NCBI RefSeq assembly: GCF_030730865.1
Contig: NZ_JAVALZ010000001.1
Span: forward strand, 682,001-746,000
Direction: 5' to 3'
Length of the DNA: 64,000 nt
Source: Uliginosibacterium sp. 31-16
GTDB taxonomy: Bacteria; Pseudomonadota; Gammaproteobacteria; Burkholderiales; Rhodocyclaceae
The notes under the pieces were generated by a model. That model did no database searches, had not been told where the DNA came from, and was given only the letters and a program-made list of their open reading frames with translations. A program made the position numbers and the translations under genes. Below are positions 21,017 to 29,485 of this stretch, piece after piece (the stretch's first letter is position 1; every line of letters starts with the position of its first letter).

Positions 21017-21412
21017 ATGATCGGCATCCTCATCATCACTCACGGCACCCTTGGCGAATCCTTGATCCAGTGCATCTGCCACGTGATCAACAAGCGTCCG
21101 CCACACATCGCCCAGCTTGGCATAGCCGAGCAGGATGCGCCGCAAGATGCTCTGGATGAAGCCCGGCGGCTGCTGGCCAGTGTGGATGACGGCGAGGGAG
21201 TTCTGATTTTGACGGACATCTATGGTGCAACACCGGCCAACATTGCCATGAAACTTCTCATCCCCGGTAAAGTCGAAGGCGTCGCCGGCGTCAGCATCCC
21301 GATGCTGCTGCGCGTCTTGACCTACCGGGAAAAGAGCGATATTCAAACCGTAGTACACAAGGCCATATCCGGCGGCTGCGATGGTGTGCTGCACATAAAA
21401 GGAGGCTTCTGA
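21017..21412 (+). CDS. PTS EIIA component, mannose/fructose (EIIA-Man) family
   Basis: A 131-residue EIIA-Man-type phosphocarrier. The phosphorylated His is His9 in GILIITHGTLGES; TDIYGATPANIAMKLL near residue 74 is the family switch region. EIIB and EIIC sugar-specific components are absent, while HPr and Enzyme I follow directly. The protein is therefore the terminal acceptor of a regulatory phosphorelay and not a transporter subunit. This arrangement after gshAB is typical of betaproteobacteria. Confidence 0.95.
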   Translation: MIGILIITHGTLGESLIQCICHVINKRPPHIAQLGIAEQDAPQDALDEARRLLASVDDGEGVLILTDIYGATPANIAMKLLIPGKVEGVAGVSIPMLLRVLTYREKSDIQTVVHKAISGGCDGVLHIKGGF

Positions 21413-21413
21413 A

Positions 21414-21683
21414 ATGCCCCGCGCGATGACTGAAATTGCCAACCGGCTGGGTCTGCACGCCCGCCCCTCTGCCAAGCTGACCCAGCTGGCCACCCAGTTC
21501 CGCAGCGATGTCTGGCTGGAACGTGAAGGCCGCCGCGTCAACGCCAAGAGCATCATGGGCGTCATGATGCTGGCTGCTTCACAAGGCACGAAACTCACCA
21601 TAGAGACCGAGGGTGAAGACGCCGAGGCTGCGCTCGCCGCCATCGTCGAACTGATTGCCAGCCGCTTCGGCGAGCGCGAATAA
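21414..21683 (+). CDS. ptsH: Phosphocarrier protein HPr
   Basis: An 89-residue HPr. The active-site His15 lies in NRLGLHARPSAKL and the regulatory Ser46 in NAKSIMGVMMLAAS, so both phosphorylation sites are kept. Retention of the Ser46 region suggests possible control by an HPr kinase, which is not in this window. It begins 2 bp after the EIIA stop. It accepts phosphate from Enzyme I and passes it to EIIA. Confidence 0.96.
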   Translation: MPRAMTEIANRLGLHARPSAKLTQLATQFRSDVWLEREGRRVNAKSIMGVMMLAASQGTKLTIETEGEDAEAALAAIVELIASRFGERE

Positions 21684-21700
21684 GGCGACAGTCTCGACCC

Positions 21701-23425
21701 ATGCCCTTCGTCATCCACGGACTGCCTGTCTCACATGGAATCGCCATCGGGCGTGCCCATCTGGTTTCCCATGCCTTGCTGGAGGTCGATCACCTGTTGA
21801 TCGCCCCACGCCATGTGGAGGCCGAAGTGATCCGCCTGGAAGACGCTGCCGCCAAGGTCCGTTTCGAGCTGCGAGCGCTGCGCGAGGCCTCGGCCAATGT
21901 GCAGTCAGAAGTCTCGGCATTTGTCGACCTGCACACCATGCTGCTCGACGACCCGATGCTGGTCAGCACTGCCTGCAAGCTGATCCGCGAGCGTCGTTGC
22001 AACGCCGAGTGGGCATTGGTGCAACAGATGGAATTGATCGTCGACGACTTTGACAACATCGACGATCCTTACCTGCGCGAACGCAAGGCTGACGTGATTC
22101 AGGTGGTCGAACGCGTACTCAAGGCTCTGCTGGGGCATCCCGGCCATGTCACCACGCGCCGCGGCAAGGACGACGGGCTGGACAGCATCGTCGTCGCTCA
22201 CGACCTTTCTCCTGCCGACACCATCCACTTCAAGGACAGCCAGGTCGCCGGCTTCGTCACCGATGTCGGTGGCGCCACCTCGCACACGGCCATCGTCGCC
22301 CGCAGCCTGGGCATCCCGGCGGTGGTCGGCCTGCGTCACATCCGCCACATCGCCCGCGACGACGACATCATCATCATCGATGGCGCACGCGGCGTAGCCA
22401 TCATCGATCCGGACGAACGCGTCCTTGAAGAATATCGCCTGCGCCGCAGTGCCATCGAACTGGAACGGACCAAGCTCAAGCGCTTGAAAGCCAACCGCGC
22501 CGCCACGCTCGACGGCATCGAGATTTCGCTGCAGGCCAATATCGAGTTGCCCCGGGACATTCCCGGAGTCAAGGACGTTTACGCCGACGGGGTCGGTCTG
22601 TTCCGCACCGAATTCCTCTTCATGAACCGCGACACGCTGCCCAATGAAGAGGAGCAGTTCGAGGCCTACAAAGCCGTCGCCAAAGCCATGGGTGGCAAGC
22701 CGGTCACCATCCGCACCCTGGATATCGGCGCCGACAAGAACCTCAATTCAGGTGGCCCACGCCCAGAAACCAATCCGGCACTGGGCCTGCGCGCCATCCG
22801 CTACTGCCTGGCCGAGCCGCAGATGTTCCTGACCCAGCTGCGGGCCCTGCTGCGTGCCTCGCTGCACGGCAAGATCAAGATCCTGATCCCGATGCTGGCG
22901 CATGCTCACGAAGTTGACGCCTCGCTGGCCGCCATCGAGCAGGCCAAGGCCCAGTTGCGCGCGGAAAAGATCAAGTTCGACGAAGCCATCCCCGTCGGCG
23001 GCATGATCGAAATCCCTGCCGCCGCACTGGCACTGGGCATCTTCGTCAAACGTCTGGACTTCCTCTCCATCGGCACCAACGACCTGATCCAGTACACCCT
23101 GGCCATCGATCGCACCGACGAAGCCGTTGCCCATCTCTACGATCCGCTCCACCCAGCCATCCTGCGCCTGATTTCGGCCACCATCCAGGCCGGCATCAAG
23201 GCCGAAATTCCGGTGTCGGTGTGCGGCGAAATGGCCGGCGACAAGAGCTTCACCCGCCTGCTGCTGGGCATGGGTCTGCAGCAATTCTCGATGCACCCGA
23301 CCCAGATTCTGGAGGTCAAGCAGGAAATCCTGCGCTCCAACAGCGCGGACCTCGCCCTCAAGGTCGCCAAGATCCTCAAGCTCGAAGAGCCGGACAAGAT
23401 TCGCGAAGCAGTGGAAAAACTCTGA
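21701..23425 (+). CDS. ptsI: Phosphoenolpyruvate--protein phosphotransferase (Enzyme I)
   Basis: A 574-residue Enzyme I, which takes phosphate from PEP and passes it to HPr. The phospho-His, about residue 195, is in GGATSHTAIVARSLGIPAVVG. The PEP-binding barrel shows GLFRTEFLFMNRDTLP, GGPRPETNPALGLRAI and FLSIGTNDLIQYTLAIDRTD, and the catalytic Cys region is VSVCGEMAGD. It lacks an N-terminal GAF domain, so it is the canonical form and not PtsP. It follows HPr by 17 bp. A 107-bp repeat copy starts 26 bp after the stop. Confidence 0.96.
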   Translation: MPFVIHGLPVSHGIAIGRAHLVSHALLEVDHLLIAPRHVEAEVIRLEDAAAKVRFELRALREASANVQSEVSAFVDLHTMLLDDPMLVSTACKLIRERRCNAEWALVQQMELIVDDFDNIDDPYLRERKADVIQVVERVLKALLGHPGHVTTRRGKDDGLDSIVVAHDLSPADTIHFKDSQVAGFVTDVGGATSHTAIVARSLGIPAVVGLRHIRHIARDDDIIIIDGARGVAIIDPDERVLEEYRLRRSAIELERTKLKRLKANRAATLDGIEISLQANIELPRDIPGVKDVYADGVGLFRTEFLFMNRDTLPNEEEQFEAYKAVAKAMGGKPVTIRTLDIGADKNLNSGGPRPETNPALGLRAIRYCLAEPQMFLTQLRALLRASLHGKIKILIPMLAHAHEVDASLAAIEQAKAQLRAEKIKFDEAIPVGGMIEIPAAALALGIFVKRLDFLSIGTNDLIQYTLAIDRTDEAVAHLYDPLHPAILRLISATIQAGIKAEIPVSVCGEMAGDKSFTRLLLGMGLQQFSMHPTQILEVKQEILRSNSADLALKVAKILKLEEPDKIREAVEKL

Positions 23426-23450
23426 AGATGAAGCGCGTCAGGCGGCGGCT

Positions 23451-23557
23451 GAAGAGCCGCTTCTGACAAGGCTTACCGGCACACCCACCTCAAAACCCGC
23501 GCCAGACAATCCTTCGCAGCACCACTGTCCGGAGAAGTCCGCCAGAAGAGGCTCTCC
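23451..23557 (+). repeat. Copy 3 of the 107-bp element (one of the best copies)
   Basis: Left end GAAGAGCCGCTTCTG, right end CAGAAGAGGCTCTCC: near-perfect 15-bp terminal inverted repeats. It is roughly 80% identical by eye to the copy at 57455 over the full 107 bp. Similar sequence may continue a few bases past the right end. It lies between ptsI and the SAM-II riboswitch. Confidence 0.85.
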
Positions 23558-23720
23558 GGGCATTCCTTGCAAGAGTAGTTTCTGACAGCAAGCACGCCTC
23601 CCGCCAGGCCTGCACCGACGTAAGCCCGCGTAAACTTCACTCCGCATGTGCTTTGGCTCTGTCACCAAAGGCGGCCGCTCCGTTTGACTTTCTCGCGCTC
23701 TGCGAGTAATTTCGACTCCA

Positions 23721-23772
23721 TTGCGCCGATTTGATTCAGCTTGCGGGCGCGTAACAAATACGGCTAAAGCGG
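23721..23772 (+). promoter_or_regulatory. SAM-II riboswitch upstream of metX
   Basis: Matches the compact SAM-II pseudoknot aptamer. Stem P1 is GCGCC (23723-23727) with GGCGC (23746-23750). It is followed by the conserved GATTT, TTGC, GCGCGT, an A-rich strand and finally GGCTAAA. Order and spacing of these blocks agree with the known alphaproteobacterial metX/metA element. An intrinsic terminator follows within 12 bp and metX starts within 60 bp. S-adenosylmethionine should therefore repress metX. The loop-loop pairing AGCU/GGCU is possible but was checked only by eye. Confidence 0.87.
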
Positions 23773-23783
23773 ATGGGCACCAC

Positions 23784-23817
23784 AAAACCCGATCACGCTT
23801 TGGCTGATCGGGTTTTT
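23784..23817 (+). terminator. Intrinsic terminator between SAM-II aptamer and metX
   Basis: AAAACCCGATCA and TGATCGGGTTTTT form a 12-bp stem with a 9-base loop followed by a T run. It ends only ten bases before the metX start, so it probably acts as the riboswitch expression platform. Confidence 0.85.
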
Positions 23818-23827
23818 GCTTTTGACG

Positions 23828-24961
23828 ATGACAAAGAATCCATCAGGTAGTGTCGGCATCGTAACGCCGCAATGTGCACACTTCACCGAGCCGCTCGCCC
23901 TGCGCAGCGGTGGCGTACTGCCCGCCTACGATCTGGTGTATGAAACCTACGGCACCCTCAACGCAGCCAGATCCAATGCGGTGCTGGTGTGCCACGCCCT
24001 GTCCGGCTCGCACCACGTCGCGGGGACCTATGCCGACAAGCCGAAAAGTACCGGCTGGTGGGATAACCTCGTCGGCCCCGGCAAGCCGCTGGATACCAAC
24101 AAGTTCTTCGTTGTCGGCGTCAACAATCTCGGTGGCTGCTTCGGCTCGACCGGACCACAGAGCATCAATCCTGCGACCGGCCGGCCTTGGGGCGCGAGCT
24201 TCCCCTTCGTGACGGTCGAGGACTGGGTCGATTCGCAGGCTCTGCTGGCGGATCGTCTGGGTATCGACGCCTGGGCTGCCGTTCTCGGCGGTTCGCTCGG
24301 CGGCATGCAGGCGCTGGCCTGGACCCTGCGCCACCCCGAACGTGTGCGTCACGGCATGGTGATCGCTGCCGCACCGCAACTCTCGACCGAGAACATCGCC
24401 TTCAACGAGGTCGCGCGCCAAGCCATCCTGACCGACCCGGACTTTCACGGCGGCAACTATTATCAGCATGGCGTGGTGCCCGTGCGCGGCCTGCGTCTGG
24501 CGCGCATGGTTGGCCACATCACCTATCTGTCGGATGACGCGATGGCCGAGAAATTCGGCCGCAAGCTGCGCCATGGCGAGCACAAGTACCATTTTGATGT
24601 CGAATTCGAGATCGAGTCCTACCTGAACTATCAGGGCGACAAGTTCGCCGGCTTCTTTGACGCCAACACCTATCTGCTCACGACCAAAGCGCTGGACTAC
24701 TTCGATCCGGCCTACGAATACGGTGGCGACCTGAAAGCCGCTCTGGCACGCGCCAAGGCCAAGTTCTTCCTCGCCTCCTTCACCACCGACTGGCGCTTCT
24801 CACCCGCACGTTCACGCGAACTGGTGTTCGCATTGCTGCACAACCAGCGCGACGTGAGCTACGCCGAAATCGCCAGCAGTGCCGGGCACGACTCCTTCCT
24901 GCTCGACGATCCGCATTACCACGCCGCGATGCGCGCGTACTTCCAGAACATCGAAGTATGA
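23828..24961 (+). CDS. metX: Homoserine O-acyltransferase
   Basis: A 377-residue alpha/beta-hydrolase enzyme that acylates homoserine in methionine synthesis. The nucleophile Ser, about residue 156, is in [25 protein letters not shown] forms the oxyanion region and the catalytic His is in [13 protein letters not shown]. Many proteobacterial MetX enzymes use succinyl-CoA in place of acetyl-CoA; this cannot be decided by eye. The ATG at 23828 has no good ribosome-binding site, since the preceding bases are the terminator stem. This fits control through the SAM-II element. metW follows after an unusual 202-bp insert. Confidence 0.94.
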
Positions 24962-25163: not shown

Positions 25164-25769
25164 ATGGTAAAAACCGGCCAACAAGACCGCCACGACTACG
25201 ACGTGATCGCCGGCTGGGTGCGTGAAGGCGCCCGCGTGCTCGACCTCGGCTGCGGCGACGGCGAATTACTGCAGCACCTGGCGGCCACCCGCAAGACCCT
25301 GGGCTATGGCGTGGAGCGTGACTCCGAGCGCGTTACCGCCTGCATCGCCAATCACATCAACGTGCTGCAGATCGATCTGGAACAGGGTCTCGCCGGTTTC
25401 GAGGACGGCCAGTTCGATTACGTGATCATGAGCCTCTCGCTGCAGGCCGTGCACAACACAGAGGGCATCCTCAGCGAAATGCTGCGTGTCGGTCGCGAGG
25501 CCGTGGTGAGCTTCCCGAACTTCGGTTACTGGCGCCATCGCGTGTCGATCAACGAAGGTCACATGCCCGTCTCTGACAGCCTGCCGCACCAGTGGTACAA
25601 CACGCCCAACGTGCGCTTCTTCACCATGGCGGACTTTGAGCAACTGTGCGAAAAACGCGGCATCGCCGTGCTGGAGCGCGCCGCATTCGACGAAGACCGG
25701 GCCATTGACATCGACCCGAACAACTTCGCCAGTGTGGCGCTGTACCGCTTGGGGCGCACTGCCGCCTGA
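25164..25769 (+). CDS. metW: MetW, methionine biosynthesis methyltransferase-like protein
   Basis: A 201-residue SAM-methyltransferase-fold protein of the MetW family, which pairs with MetX and is needed for its activity in several proteobacteria. Motif I is ARVLDLGCGDGELLQHL near residue 20, followed by YVIMSLSLQAVHN, the family-specific SFPNFGYWRHRV, and LPHQWYNTPNVRFFT. The start ATG lies right after the inverted repeat. The last three bases of the stop are inside a truncated 107-bp repeat copy. Confidence 0.94.
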   Translation: MVKTGQQDRHDYDVIAGWVREGARVLDLGCGDGELLQHLAATRKTLGYGVERDSERVTACIANHINVLQIDLEQGLAGFEDGQFDYVIMSLSLQAVHNTEGILSEMLRVGREAVVSFPNFGYWRHRVSINEGHMPVSDSLPHQWYNTPNVRFFTMADFEQLCEKRGIAVLERAAFDEDRAIDIDPNNFASVALYRLGRTAA

Positions 25770-25830: not shown

Positions 25831-25993
25831 CGCCCGCCATTCATCGCGTTTTAGTGGTTTGCGCAACACATCTCCCCGCGTTTCTGCGGCATTCATTGTT
25901 CCCGGTCCCATATTGCGTTAGTTTGATGCTTGCACAAGCACCGGGGAGACTTGCGAAGCCCCCCCGGCAATAACACATCCGGTGGAGACTCTC

Positions 25994-28900
25994 ATGAAAT
26001 TCGCACTTGGTCGTGCCTGGGGCAAGGCATGTCTTGGAACCGTACTGCTCGCTCTGCTGGCAGGCTGTGGCGGGGGTGGCAGTGGTGGTGGCGCAAGCGA
26101 CTCCGGCGCATCGACCGGCAACTCATCCAGCAGCAGTTCCGGTGGCAATACGGTTCTGACGGTCAGCGCCACGCCTACGGGCTGGGCATCCGAAGACGGC
26201 GGCACGACTGGCGGCACCGGTGCGCCAGCCAGCAACATCTATGTGGTACACAACCGGGCAGAACTGCTCAACGCCCTGGCCAACAAGAACAGTCCGAACT
26301 ACTCGGCTACCAATGCGACCAACCTTGGTCTGGGCGCACCGGCAGCCAAAGAAGCCAAGATCATTTACATCGTCGGCACCATCTGGGGCACTGATCTGGG
26401 TAACGGCAAGTTCGCAGACGAGACCTATTACAAATCCACTAATACGACCGCAGCCAAGTGGGACTTTGAGCTTTATCTCCAGAGTCTCGACACCCAATGG
26501 GCCGCAGATCTGGCCACCGCTGTCGCGGCCGGAGACGCTGCGGCCATTGCGACCAAGAGCAAGGTCAGCGCCTTGTCCTCGGCACGCAGCACACTGGGCC
26601 GCCTCCAGAAAGCGCAGATCCAGTTCCAGATCCCGTCAAATACGACCATCATGGGCGTGGGCTCAGACGCAAAACTGATCGACGGCTACTTCTCGATCAA
26701 TGGCGGAACAAGCAAGGACCTGGGAACCAATATTGTCGTCCGCAACCTTGAATTTCAGGCACCTCAGGATCTGACCACGCAGTACGACACCAAAAAGCAG
26801 GAATGGAACGCCGCCTACAAGGCGTTCGGCATCGTCACTGGCAAGCATGTGTGGATCGACCACTGTACCTTCAGTGACGGCGCCCATATCGACTCGGCCG
26901 AGGTCCGCACCATCAACGGCTACACGCTGGAAGTGATGCGCCACGACGGCCTGCTCGACATCGAAGACAGCGCCGACTACATCACAGTTTCCTACTCCGT
27001 CTTCAAGAACCACGACAAAACCAACATGGTCGGCGGTTCAGGAGATCAGAACTACGCCAAGGAGCGGGACTTCAACCACCTGACCTTCAGCAACAACATC
27101 TGGCAGGATTCCGTGCAGCGCGCCCCGCGCGTGCGCTTTGCCAAAGCGCACGTTTATAACAACTACTACACAGGCGACACGGACAAGACCAGCTACGGCA
27201 CCAGCTATTACATTGGTATGGGCGCCGAGTCCAAGATCCTCTCCGAAGCCAACGTGTTCGACCTGACCGGCTCGAAAGCCAAGGTCAGCCAGGTGATCTC
27301 GAATCTGAACGGCTATCAGTTCAAGGATGTCGGATCCTGGTTCAACGGAGTACCCGCTTCGGCAGATCTGGAAGCTGCCGCCAAAGCGGCGCTGGAAGCG
27401 CGCTGGGCCTCGGCGCAGGCAGCTCAGGCAGGGACATCCGGCGGGTTCATCCTGGCCCCTTACACCAACGAACTGGGCTGGGCTCCTACCTACAGCTACA
27501 CGCGTGGCGCTTCGGCGGCACAGGTGCGCGAACATAATCTCGCCAATGCCGGCGCCGGCAAGCTGGTCGTTTCCCTGGCAACCACGGCAACACGCCCGCA
27601 ACTGGACGACACCTCCGCGACCAATTACACCGTAGCCAAGGCTTTGGCCGGAGCAGACACCTGGGCGCCCCAGACGGTGAACAGCGACCAGCCTAATGTC
27701 GGCCGCATCAATCTGACCGGCGTGACGCCGAACTACGTCGTGGCCCAAGATGGCACGGGCGGTTACACCACCATCCAGGCCGCGCTGAACGCTGCTTCCA
27801 TCGACACGTCGGGCGCAGCACGCCTGTATGTCCAGGTCAAAGCCGGGACATACAACGAGCAGCTCATCGTTGCCCACTCCACGACGCCGATCACCCTGTA
27901 TTCGATGGAAAGCGACGCCTCCAAAGTCGTGGTGAGTACCGCTCTGTACCAGAACAGCGCGGCGCTCGACTACACCACGATGCTGGGCGCAAGCTTTGCC
28001 ACCTCGGTCTACAGCACCAGCACCAACAGCACGATCAAGACCGACTACAACGGTTGTTATCGTGCGGCTGCCGTTGGAAAGCAGTGTTCCACCGCGATCC
28101 GCATCCACAACAAGGGCTTCAACGCAGTCAACCTGACCTTCCAGAACACCTGGGGAGACACTGACGCGAAAGGCAACAATCAGGCACTGGCCGCAATGGT
28201 CGACAAAGCCGACCAGGTCATGTTCGACGGCGTGCGCCTGATATCCAATCAGGACACCCTGTATGTCAACAACCCGGGCGCACGCGTGTATTTCGTCGCT
28301 GGCGAAATCACCGGGGATGTGGACTTCATCTTCGGAGCAGGCACCGCGGTGTTCGATGGCACAGCTGTTCGCTACACCGGCGCGCGCAAGCCTGCCGGTG
28401 GATACAACGGAGCACCGTCTACACTGACCGCACAAGCCTATGGCTTCATCTTCAACCGCTGCGTTTTCGTGGGCGACGATGCGACCACGGCAGACAGCGT
28501 CTTCCTCGCCCGTCAGTGGGATACCGATGCCAACTCGGTCGGCAAGATGATCGTGCGCAATTCCGTCATCGGCAAACACATCGCCACGACCAGCGGGCCG
28601 TGGAACGCCACCACGGTTAACAATGCCAGCACCAACTATGGAACGTCCGAGCGCTATCTGGCGGAATACCTGAACTGGGACGAAGCACAAAAGACCACCA
28701 GCGGCGGCAGCTCATCGAGTTCAAGCAGCTCTTCGAGCTCCAGCAGTTCTTCAAGCTCGTCCAGCTCGAGTTCATCCAGTTCGAGCAGCTCGTCCTCCAG
28801 CTCCGGTGGTTCCAGTTCGAGCTCATCGAGTTCGGGTGGTACCGATACTCCGATTACCGGCTCCGGCACCTTCACCAGTGCCTACGCTTCGGGCGGTCTA

Positions 28901-29485
28901 CCGGGCACGGTGACAACGACGTACGACAGCGTCAACGGCGTCTTCACGCTTGTGTCGGCAGGCAGCATCGGTACATCATCGATTCTCTATGACAATCTGC
29001 AGTTCGCTTACAAGCAAGTCACCGGCGACTTCACGATCAAAGCCCGCCTGACCTCGCTGGAGCTGCCGACAGGGCTGTCCACAGCAAATGTTCGCGCCGG
29101 CCTCCTGCTGCGCAACAGCCTCGCAGACAACTCGCGCTTCTTCGGCATCATGGTGCGCGGCGTGCCGCGTGTGCAGTGGGAGCAGCGCTTGTCGGACGGC
29201 GGCGGTGAGTCCTCAGCCTCTCTGGTCTCTCTGGCCGCGCAACCCTCCAGTGCCGCACCTGTGTGGCTCAAGCTGCAGCGCGTAGGACAAGTCATCAGCG
29301 TCTGGTACTCCATCGACGCCGGCGTCACCTACCTGCCTGCCACAGTGAAGTCACAAGACTTTTCGACCGCCGCCGGGGCCACCCTGCTCAGCGACACCGT
29401 GTATGTGGGCATGGCTGGGGTTTCGGGCAGCACCACCGTCACTTCCACCAGCATCTTCGACAACGTGACGCTGACAACCCCCTGA
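25994..29485 (+). CDS. Multidomain secreted pectinase: pectate lyase + pectin methylesterase
   Basis: A 1163-residue lipoprotein (lipobox LLALLAGC, then a Gly/Ser-rich linker). Residues about 60-490 are a PL1-type pectate lyase with HVWIDHCTFSDG near 287 and the catalytic-Arg segment RAPRVRFAKAHVYNNYY near 376. Residues about 580-890 are a CE8 pectin methylesterase: QDGTGGYTTIQAAL, NQDTLYV, catalytic GDVDFIFGAGTAVF near 774 and LARQWDTD near 838. A polyserine linker (about 903-952) leads to a C-terminal beta-sandwich domain (YDNLQFAYKQVTGDFTIKA), perhaps carbohydrate binding (DUF1349-like). De-esterification and cleavage of pectin are thus combined in one protein. ATG 25994 has GGAG six bases upstream. 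Confidence 0.93.
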   Translation: MKFALGRAWGKACLGTVLLALLAGCGGGGSGGGASDSGASTGNSSSSSSGGNTVLTVSATPTGWASEDGGTTGGTGAPASNIYVVHNRAELLNALANKNSPNYSATNATNLGLGAPAAKEAKIIYIVGTIWGTDLGNGKFADETYYKSTNTTAAKWDFELYLQSLDTQWAADLATAVAAGDAAAIATKSKVSALSSARSTLGRLQKAQIQFQIPSNTTIMGVGSDAKLIDGYFSINGGTSKDLGTNIVVRNLEFQAPQDLTTQYDTKKQEWNAAYKAFGIVTGKHVWIDHCTFSDGAHIDSAEVRTINGYTLEVMRHDGLLDIEDSADYITVSYSVFKNHDKTNMVGGSGDQNYAKERDFNHLTFSNNIWQDSVQRAPRVRFAKAHVYNNYYTGDTDKTSYGTSYYIGMGAESKILSEANVFDLTGSKAKVSQVISNLNGYQFKDVGSWFNGVPASADLEAAAKAALEARWASAQAAQAGTSGGFILAPYTNELGWAPTYSYTRGASAAQVREHNLANAGAGKLVVSLATTATRPQLDDTSATNYTVAKALAGADTWAPQTVNSDQPNVGRINLTGVTPNYVVAQDGTGGYTTIQAALNAASIDTSGAARLYVQVKAGTYNEQLIVAHSTTPITLYSMESDASKVVVSTALYQNSAALDYTTMLGASFATSVYSTSTNSTIKTDYNGCYRAAAVGKQCSTAIRIHNKGFNAVNLTFQNTWGDTDAKGNNQALAAMVDKADQVMFDGVRLISNQDTLYVNNPGARVYFVAGEITGDVDFIFGAGTAVFDGTAVRYTGARKPAGGYNGAPSTLTAQAYGFIFNRCVFVGDDATTADSVFLARQWDTDANSVGKMIVRNSVIGKHIATTSGPWNATTVNNASTNYGTSERYLAEYLNWDEAQKTTSGGSSSSSSSSSSSSSSSSSSSSSSSSSSSSSSSSGGSSSSSSSSGGTDTPITGSGTFTSAYASGGLPGTVTTTYDSVNGVFTLVSAGSIGTSSILYDNLQFAYKQVTGDFTIKARLTSLELPTGLSTANVRAGLLLRNSLADNSRFFGIMVRGVPRVQWEQRLSDGGGESSASLVSLAAQPSSAAPVWLKLQRVGQVISVWYSIDAGVTYLPATVKSQDFSTAAGATLLSDTVYVGMAGVSGSTTVTSTSIFDNVTLTTP

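Follow-up and report, generated by a model that had tools for sequence, protein, structure and literature searches.

What decides whether metX is transcribed in Uliginosibacterium sp. 31-16, when an apparent S-adenosylmethionine (SAM) aptamer and an apparent intrinsic terminator are packed together just before its start codon? A preliminary description of the window (the whole stretch of 64,000 nucleotides that was analysed) had placed a SAM-II aptamer at 23721-23772 and a strong terminator at 23784-23817, and had treated the resulting transcriptional platform as a departure for SAM-II. Judged from its sequence and from comparison with relatives, the element is very likely a transcriptional OFF riboswitch for SAM that controls metX and probably metW, the downstream partner gene (Table 1).

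The element occupies the interval between a ptsI-like gene (named by eye, ending at 23425) and the metX ATG at 23828. The closest MetX relatives among titled records come from the metagenome-assembled genome (MAG) CTSoil_126 (92%) and from Uliginosibacterium gangwonense and U. aquaticum (87%). Just 5' of the leader stands a run of PTS genes (21017-23425, + strand) that appear by eye to encode EIIA-like, HPr-like and enzyme I-like proteins, and 25982-29485 (+) holds a long open reading frame (ORF) that reads by eye as a putative secreted pectate lyase/pectinesterase fusion with poly-serine linkers.

Table 1. Features of the metX leader and of the genes that follow it, in window positions.
Feature	Position	Strand	Details
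Sigma-70-like promoter, probable	23684..23712	+	-35 TTGACT 23684-23689; -10 TAATTT 23707-23712 by eye; 17-nt spacer
RF02424 'Burkholderia sRNA Bp2_287' match	23691..23818	-	39.5 bits, cut-off 70; reverse complement of riboswitch and terminator
SAM-II aptamer	23722..23771	+	RF00521 match; P1 23723-23727/23746-23750 plus U23722-G23751
Aptamer L1	23728-23736	+	GAUUUGAUU; SAM-II part
Aptamer P2 5' strand	23737-23742	+	GCGCAAGCTG; pseudoknot strand
Aptamer L3	23751-23762	+	SAM-II part
Aptamer P2 3' strand	23763-23771	+	Within GCUAAAGCG; pseudoknot strand
Antiterminator hairpin, predicted	23761..23806	+	17 bp; 23761-23777 with 23788-23790, 23792-23794 and 23796-23806
Intrinsic terminator	23784..23817	+	12-bp stem 23784-23795/23805-23816; loop 23796-23804; U run 23813-23817
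metX	23828..24961	+	Homoserine O-acyltransferase, succinyl type by NCBIfam; NF047916 MetX_succinyl 666 bits, cut-off 560
metW	25164..25769	+	TIGR02081 metW 249.6 bits, cut-off 189.5

The aptamer and its probable promoter

At gathering scores, no Rfam family reaches its cut-off anywhere in the window. With permissive filters applied to 23426-23960, RF00521 (SAM_alpha) gives a full-length match at 23713-23788 (+) with 34.7 bits and an E-value of 3.5e-6 in this 535-base search against Rfam; the score lies 1.3 bits below the curated gathering score of 36, which counts against the aptamer assignment. Across the whole 3.9-Mb genome, the match in the window is the best of nine at E<=10 (E 6.0e-6), the runner-up reaching 15.6 bits (E 0.94), and in 14 control genomes, all of which have matches at E<=10, none rises above the cut-off and none is found at E<=0.001. 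Given this genome-wide E-value and the empty control genomes at E<=0.001, the RF00521 covariance search that the preliminary description had proposed as a check is taken to be significant, though below the curated threshold of Rfam, and the SAM-II aptamer that it had called is borne out. Other SAM families fared poorly: SAM-II long loop (RF01726) scores 17.1 bits on the leader (E 1.4), below its 44-bit cut-off, and SAM-V is absent from the seven Rfam matches at E<=10 in 23426-23960. A match to the rnk leader family (20.9 bits, cut-off 55) was set aside as a chance product of the terminator.

The window carries the GAUUUGA, GCUUGC and GCUAAAG blocks as in the RF00521 consensus, and across 47 aligned sequences the GATTTG, TTGC and GCTAA blocks are invariant or nearly so; the conserved blocks of SAM-II are described as forming the ligand pocket (Huang & Lilley 2018). 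In these 47 sequences, the window included, 96.1% of the cells belonging to P1 and P2 remain paired, and pairs altered on both sides number 21 against a shuffled mean of 8.0, a figure reached by none of 500 shuffles. This covariation is confined to P1 and its closing pair, the latter kept in only 78.7% of sequences; P2, which is too conserved to covary, shows no compensatory change, with 10/235 cells unpaired; the behaviour of P2 and of the closing pair weighs against the assignment. G-U cells outnumber A-C cells by 10 to 1, which fits an RNA read from the + strand. In isolation, the segment 23715-23780 folds with a stability similar to that of its shuffles (z -0.31); the folding program draws no pseudoknots, and the aptamer pseudoknot is thus not visible in its folds.

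Upstream of the aptamer, a promoter is suggested by recurrence: of 173 related leaders, 145 carry TTGAC in the 70 nt that precede P1, most often at a distance of 35-42 nt, and the best promoter consensus score is at least 9 of 12 in 129/173 leaders versus 9/173 shuffled ones. The -10 assignment in the window is uncertain because the promoter scorer preferred AGTAAT, with a 15-nt spacer, over the TAATTT chosen by eye, and a generic promoter scan of the window called none at 23684-23712. Transcription would be expected to start a few nucleotides 5' of P1.

The terminator and the start of metX

The hairpin that had been described as a strong intrinsic terminator just before metX lives up to that description: its arms, AAAACCCGATCA and TGATCGGGTTTT, fold at -19.4 kcal/mol (z -6.7; 0/200 shuffles equally stable), the G+C-rich hairpin and U run that characterise an intrinsic terminator are both present, and the T run is followed by 10 nt to the ATG. 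A simple terminator pattern scan of the window missed it, a likely consequence of the 9-nt loop, which is longer than the 8 nt that the scan allows. In a set of 194 elements that is biased to high scores, mutually related and inclusive of the window (66 of 67 search hits, the partial L126 having been dropped, plus 40 MetX loci, 28 family loci without L026 and 60 fetched regions), a terminator lies within 130 nt after 184, versus 22/192 downstream and 6/130 upstream control windows.

No Shine-Dalgarno-like sequence is found near the metX ATG, in agreement with the earlier remark that the gene has no good ribosome-binding site; the anti-SD duplex is -3.2 kcal/mol, and the median over 46 metX leaders is likewise -3.2 kcal/mol, a weak site being the norm among these leaders. 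In an alternative reading, the terminator would play no part and P2 would hide a ribosome-binding site, the mechanism put forward for the metX aptamer that was crystallised. The crystallised SAM-II is of the translational type, and the metA SAM-II of S. meliloti is reported to control a Shine-Dalgarno sequence that lies 74 nt downstream and matters for initiation (Scheuer 2022); nevertheless, translational control is very unlikely at this locus, where 56 nt, including a strong terminator, separate the end of the P2 3' strand from the ATG, and where terminators follow nearly all of the elements collected, with a loop matching the P2 strand. The transcriptional platform envisaged before metX is, in this respect, supported.

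A predicted competing antiterminator

The P2 3' strand, GCUAAAGCG, is complementary to the terminator loop, and the predicted antiterminator takes six left-arm bases, the whole loop and two right-arm bases of the terminator, thereby excluding it. The preliminary description mentions neither an antiterminator nor the links to the metXZ element and to RF02424 that are set out below. The segment 23759-23806 folds as this antiterminator at -22.7 kcal/mol (z -5.9; 0/200 shuffles). For nascent transcripts with 3' ends at 23804, 23808 or 23812, the minimum-energy fold consists of P1 and the antiterminator, and from 23814 the terminator wins. Over 23719-23817, the terminator state (-36.1 kcal/mol) is more stable than the antiterminator state (-32.9 kcal/mol), which counts against the proposed switch and implies that the ON state would need kinetics or other factors; when P1 is required, the order reverses (terminator -31.2, antiterminator -32.9 kcal/mol, with P2 and ligand not counted). 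Selection between the two folds therefore probably takes place while the RNA is being transcribed.

Such complementarity recurs in relatives. Among 166 distinct hairpins with dG<=-10, the P2 3' strand pairs with its terminator at a median of -13.0 kcal/mol, versus -9.8 for 348 unrelated terminators that were drawn from the same loci and not composition-matched (p 2.2e-21); in the window the duplex reaches -19.6, and the same strand attains at best -17.4 with the 348 unrelated terminators. Pairing with the element's own terminator averages -14.81 versus -13.2 (sd 0.16) under permutation, a value equalled in none of 300 permutations. Swaps within genomes lend modest support, own pairing being better in 12/17 pairs (p 0.025; a single genome contributes three of the 17). 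In nascent folds of 160 elements (six with too short a lead having been dropped), at least five of the nine nucleotides of GCTAAAGCG pair into the terminator in 137/160, versus 361/800 with unrelated terminators; this looser criterion is thus also passed by 45% of unrelated terminators, which counts against specificity.

Two further pairings were considered and rejected. The alternative pairing of Leyn, region 5 with regions 1 and 2, corresponds here to GCCGAUUU with AAAUaCGGC; a number of folds contain it, but by eye it goes uncompensated where CGGC becomes CAGC. Complementarity between the terminator and the P2 5' strand is striking in some relatives and is not claimed as general because, overall, it barely exceeds that of unrelated terminators (p 0.011).

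An aptamer followed by a constitutive terminator, which would set a low basal level or release a short RNA without any coupling to SAM, a possibility raised for metA of S. meliloti, would account for the terminator being the full-length minimum-energy fold in the window, and no SAM-II-driven antiterminator could be predicted at metA (Scheuer 2022). Such uncoupling is likewise very unlikely, given that own-strand complementarity beats every permutation and that the 17-bp antiterminator is far more stable than its shuffles.

The reading preferred here, SAM-dependent termination, may be set out as follows. RNA polymerase would start just 5' of P1. With SAM present, the L1/P2 pseudoknot would close and hold the P2 3' strand, leaving the terminator free to form and transcription to stop before metX. 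When SAM is scarce, P2 would stay open and its 3' strand would capture the terminator as it emerges, pairing with some of the left arm, the loop and the first right-arm bases, and the antiterminator hairpin so formed would allow metX to be read. SAM, by closing P2, would tip a kinetic, co-transcriptional choice to termination. The aptamer, the terminator, the mutually exclusive antiterminator and their recurrence in relatives all emerge from sequence and comparison, and from them we infer SAM as the probable ligand, the promoter and start site, the sign and size of the effect and the kinetic choice.

Distribution and regulated genes

A lineage model, R1, was built from the 47 sequences, the window included; its score of 76.5 bits for the window is circular because the window was among its training sequences. 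By this model, the element lies upstream in 40 of the 80 MetX relatives kept from 199 found, and no R1 match was obtained at the other 40 metX loci, which include Massilia, Duganella, Rugamonas, Janthinobacterium, Nitrosomonas and Methylotenera records, an absence that weighs against the switch reading. RF00521 is found at E<=0.001 in 38/61 genomes of the GTDB family (11 over the cut-off) and in 137/300 sampled Burkholderiales genomes (51 over the cut-off), and R1 matches 231 of 300 at E<=0.001, a count taken without a control-genome baseline. The Rfam SAM_alpha cut-off thus appears to miss most of the beta-proteobacterial genomes that bear the element.

Sorted by motif, the first ORFs downstream of the 194 elements comprise metX (60), metZ (32), metH (17), a small protein with an MFDC or MYDC motif (13), metK (5) and others (64), with none at three elements; metX, metZ, metH or metK make up 114 of the 127 motif-classable ORFs, and inspection by eye suggests metX or metZ for many of the 64 others. 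When the ORFs were clustered by BLAST, one group held 72 (metX) and another 52 (metZ/metY-like), the ORF picker having taken wrong frames at some loci. Among representatives checked with Pfam and NCBIfam, the protein downstream at L232 has MetN (TIGR02314) as its best match, below cut-off.

Several loci depart from the plain arrangement. Tandem SAM-II aptamer matches, 20 to 87 nt apart, occur at L208, L228, L144, L139, L135, L244 and L245, in several Burkholderiales families; at L208 and L228 the genes that follow encode a small protein of the MYDC type and a transporter resembling MATE, and at L228 the small protein has no Pfam family and the other is MATE. SAM-II elements also lie 5' of metK-like (SAM synthetase) genes at L132, L143, L146, L234 and L237; the gene at L132 is confirmed by profile, and that locus also holds, further downstream, a SAH riboswitch over its cut-off. 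An extra hairpin-like insertion in L3, between P1 and GCTAAA, is present at L096 (2802-2893), L115 (2857-2935) and L239 (1575-1645, - strand), the carriers being Oxalobacteraceae records and a genome with a copy above the RF02424 cut-off.

The range of targets also informs the identity of the ligand. A ligand is not readable from homology alone, and an aptamer with the SAM-II fold might respond to SAH or a related compound; that it does so here is scarcely credible, since the conserved sequence blocks are kept, the targets are largely methionine or SAM genes, and the SAM-II aptamer tested earlier rejects SAH (Corbino 2005).

The match on the opposite strand

The RF02424 match on the - strand is unlikely to represent a separate RNA. 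At E<=0.001, RF02424 is found at 61 places in 57 of the 300 Burkholderiales genomes, three of which exceed its cut-off; among the matches listed, 41 of the 61 places overlap SAM-II, all 41 on the opposite strand. All 12 of the best RF02424 loci that were fetched, the three over the cut-off included, carry an opposite-strand R1 match, and three of these lie outside the 41. Least credible of all is a functional - strand sRNA antisense to the metX leader: it draws on the RF02424 score, on the short T runs that the hairpin has on both strands and on detection of the Burkholderia candidate by RT-PCR (Khoo 2012), but the score is far below cut-off, the G-U cells and the TTGAC box favour the + strand, and oligo(dT)-primed cDNA followed by PCR, as described, leaves the strand unsettled.

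Relation to known systems

The expectation that a transcriptional platform would set this locus apart from other SAM-II elements is reversed by the literature: putative terminators precede the gene after many SAM-II aptamers (Corbino 2005), transcriptional platforms were already noted in beta-proteobacteria in 2007, and most SAM-II riboswitches are described as transcriptional, the translational metX SAM-II being a rare case (Huang & Lilley 2018). The element of the window would thus be an ordinary transcriptional SAM-II riboswitch, a view well supported by comparison. Beyond this locus, it is likely that the metXZ element of Leyn 2014, RF02424 (modelled on the wrong strand) and SAM-II are one and the same; that SAM-II is a near-universal methionine regulator in beta-proteobacteria, acting on metX, metZ, metH, metK and a MATE-linked operon; and that its members share one antitermination mechanism, the terminator loop and the P2 5' strand being rivals for GCUAAAGCG. 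In the openly readable literature, no publication joining the metXZ element, RF02424 and SAM-II was found; metXZ in connection with riboswitches turned up only in Leyn 2014, Bp2_Cand287 only in Khoo 2012, and RF02424 only in a paper that, to judge by its title, is on another subject.

Such a union would give the orphan metXZ RNA element a likely ligand and would allow RF02424, seemingly a mis-stranded sRNA family, to be corrected; also useful is that the Rfam cut-off admits 51 of 300 genomes versus 231 by R1. Studies of SAM-II have centred on the translational example (Huang & Lilley 2018), and a compact leader of ~135 bases that appears to combine a probable promoter, aptamer, antiterminator and terminator would lend itself well to work on the transcriptional type that predominates.

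Compared with RF00521 (Corbino 2005; Barrick & Breaker 2007), the element shares P1 and the P2 pseudoknot, the GAUUUGA, GCUUGC and GCUAAA blocks, the place 5' of methionine genes and the terminator between P2 and gene; it differs in scoring just under the cut-off, in having a P1 inter-strand loop three positions shorter than the consensus, and in the antiterminator of P2 3' strand and terminator loop worked out here. The metXZ element of Leyn 2014, introduced there as new and found in beta-proteobacteria in front of metXW or metZ, is very probably the same element, as compared by description (position, lineage, pseudoknot order and terminator): its six conserved blocks form a pseudoknot in which regions 1-4 and 2-6 pair, and its terminator is trailing and poorly conserved. 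That study differs in naming no ligand in the passages compared, in offering a speculative antiterminator from regions 3 and 4, and in confining SAM_alpha to Rhizobiales and Rhodobacterales. Bp2_Cand287, the source of RF02424 (Bp2_287), is of the same locus kind, recorded on the minus strand and 5' of methionine genes in most genomes, and was suggested to be a cis-acting methionine element (Khoo 2012); it differs in being filed on the opposite strand, as an sRNA. Also similar is the metZ SAM-II of S. meliloti, for which termination is likewise predicted and a ~100-nt RNA, higher in rich medium, is reported (Scheuer 2022): the length fits a terminated transcript, rich medium is taken as high SAM, and the difference lies in the host, an alpha-proteobacterium.
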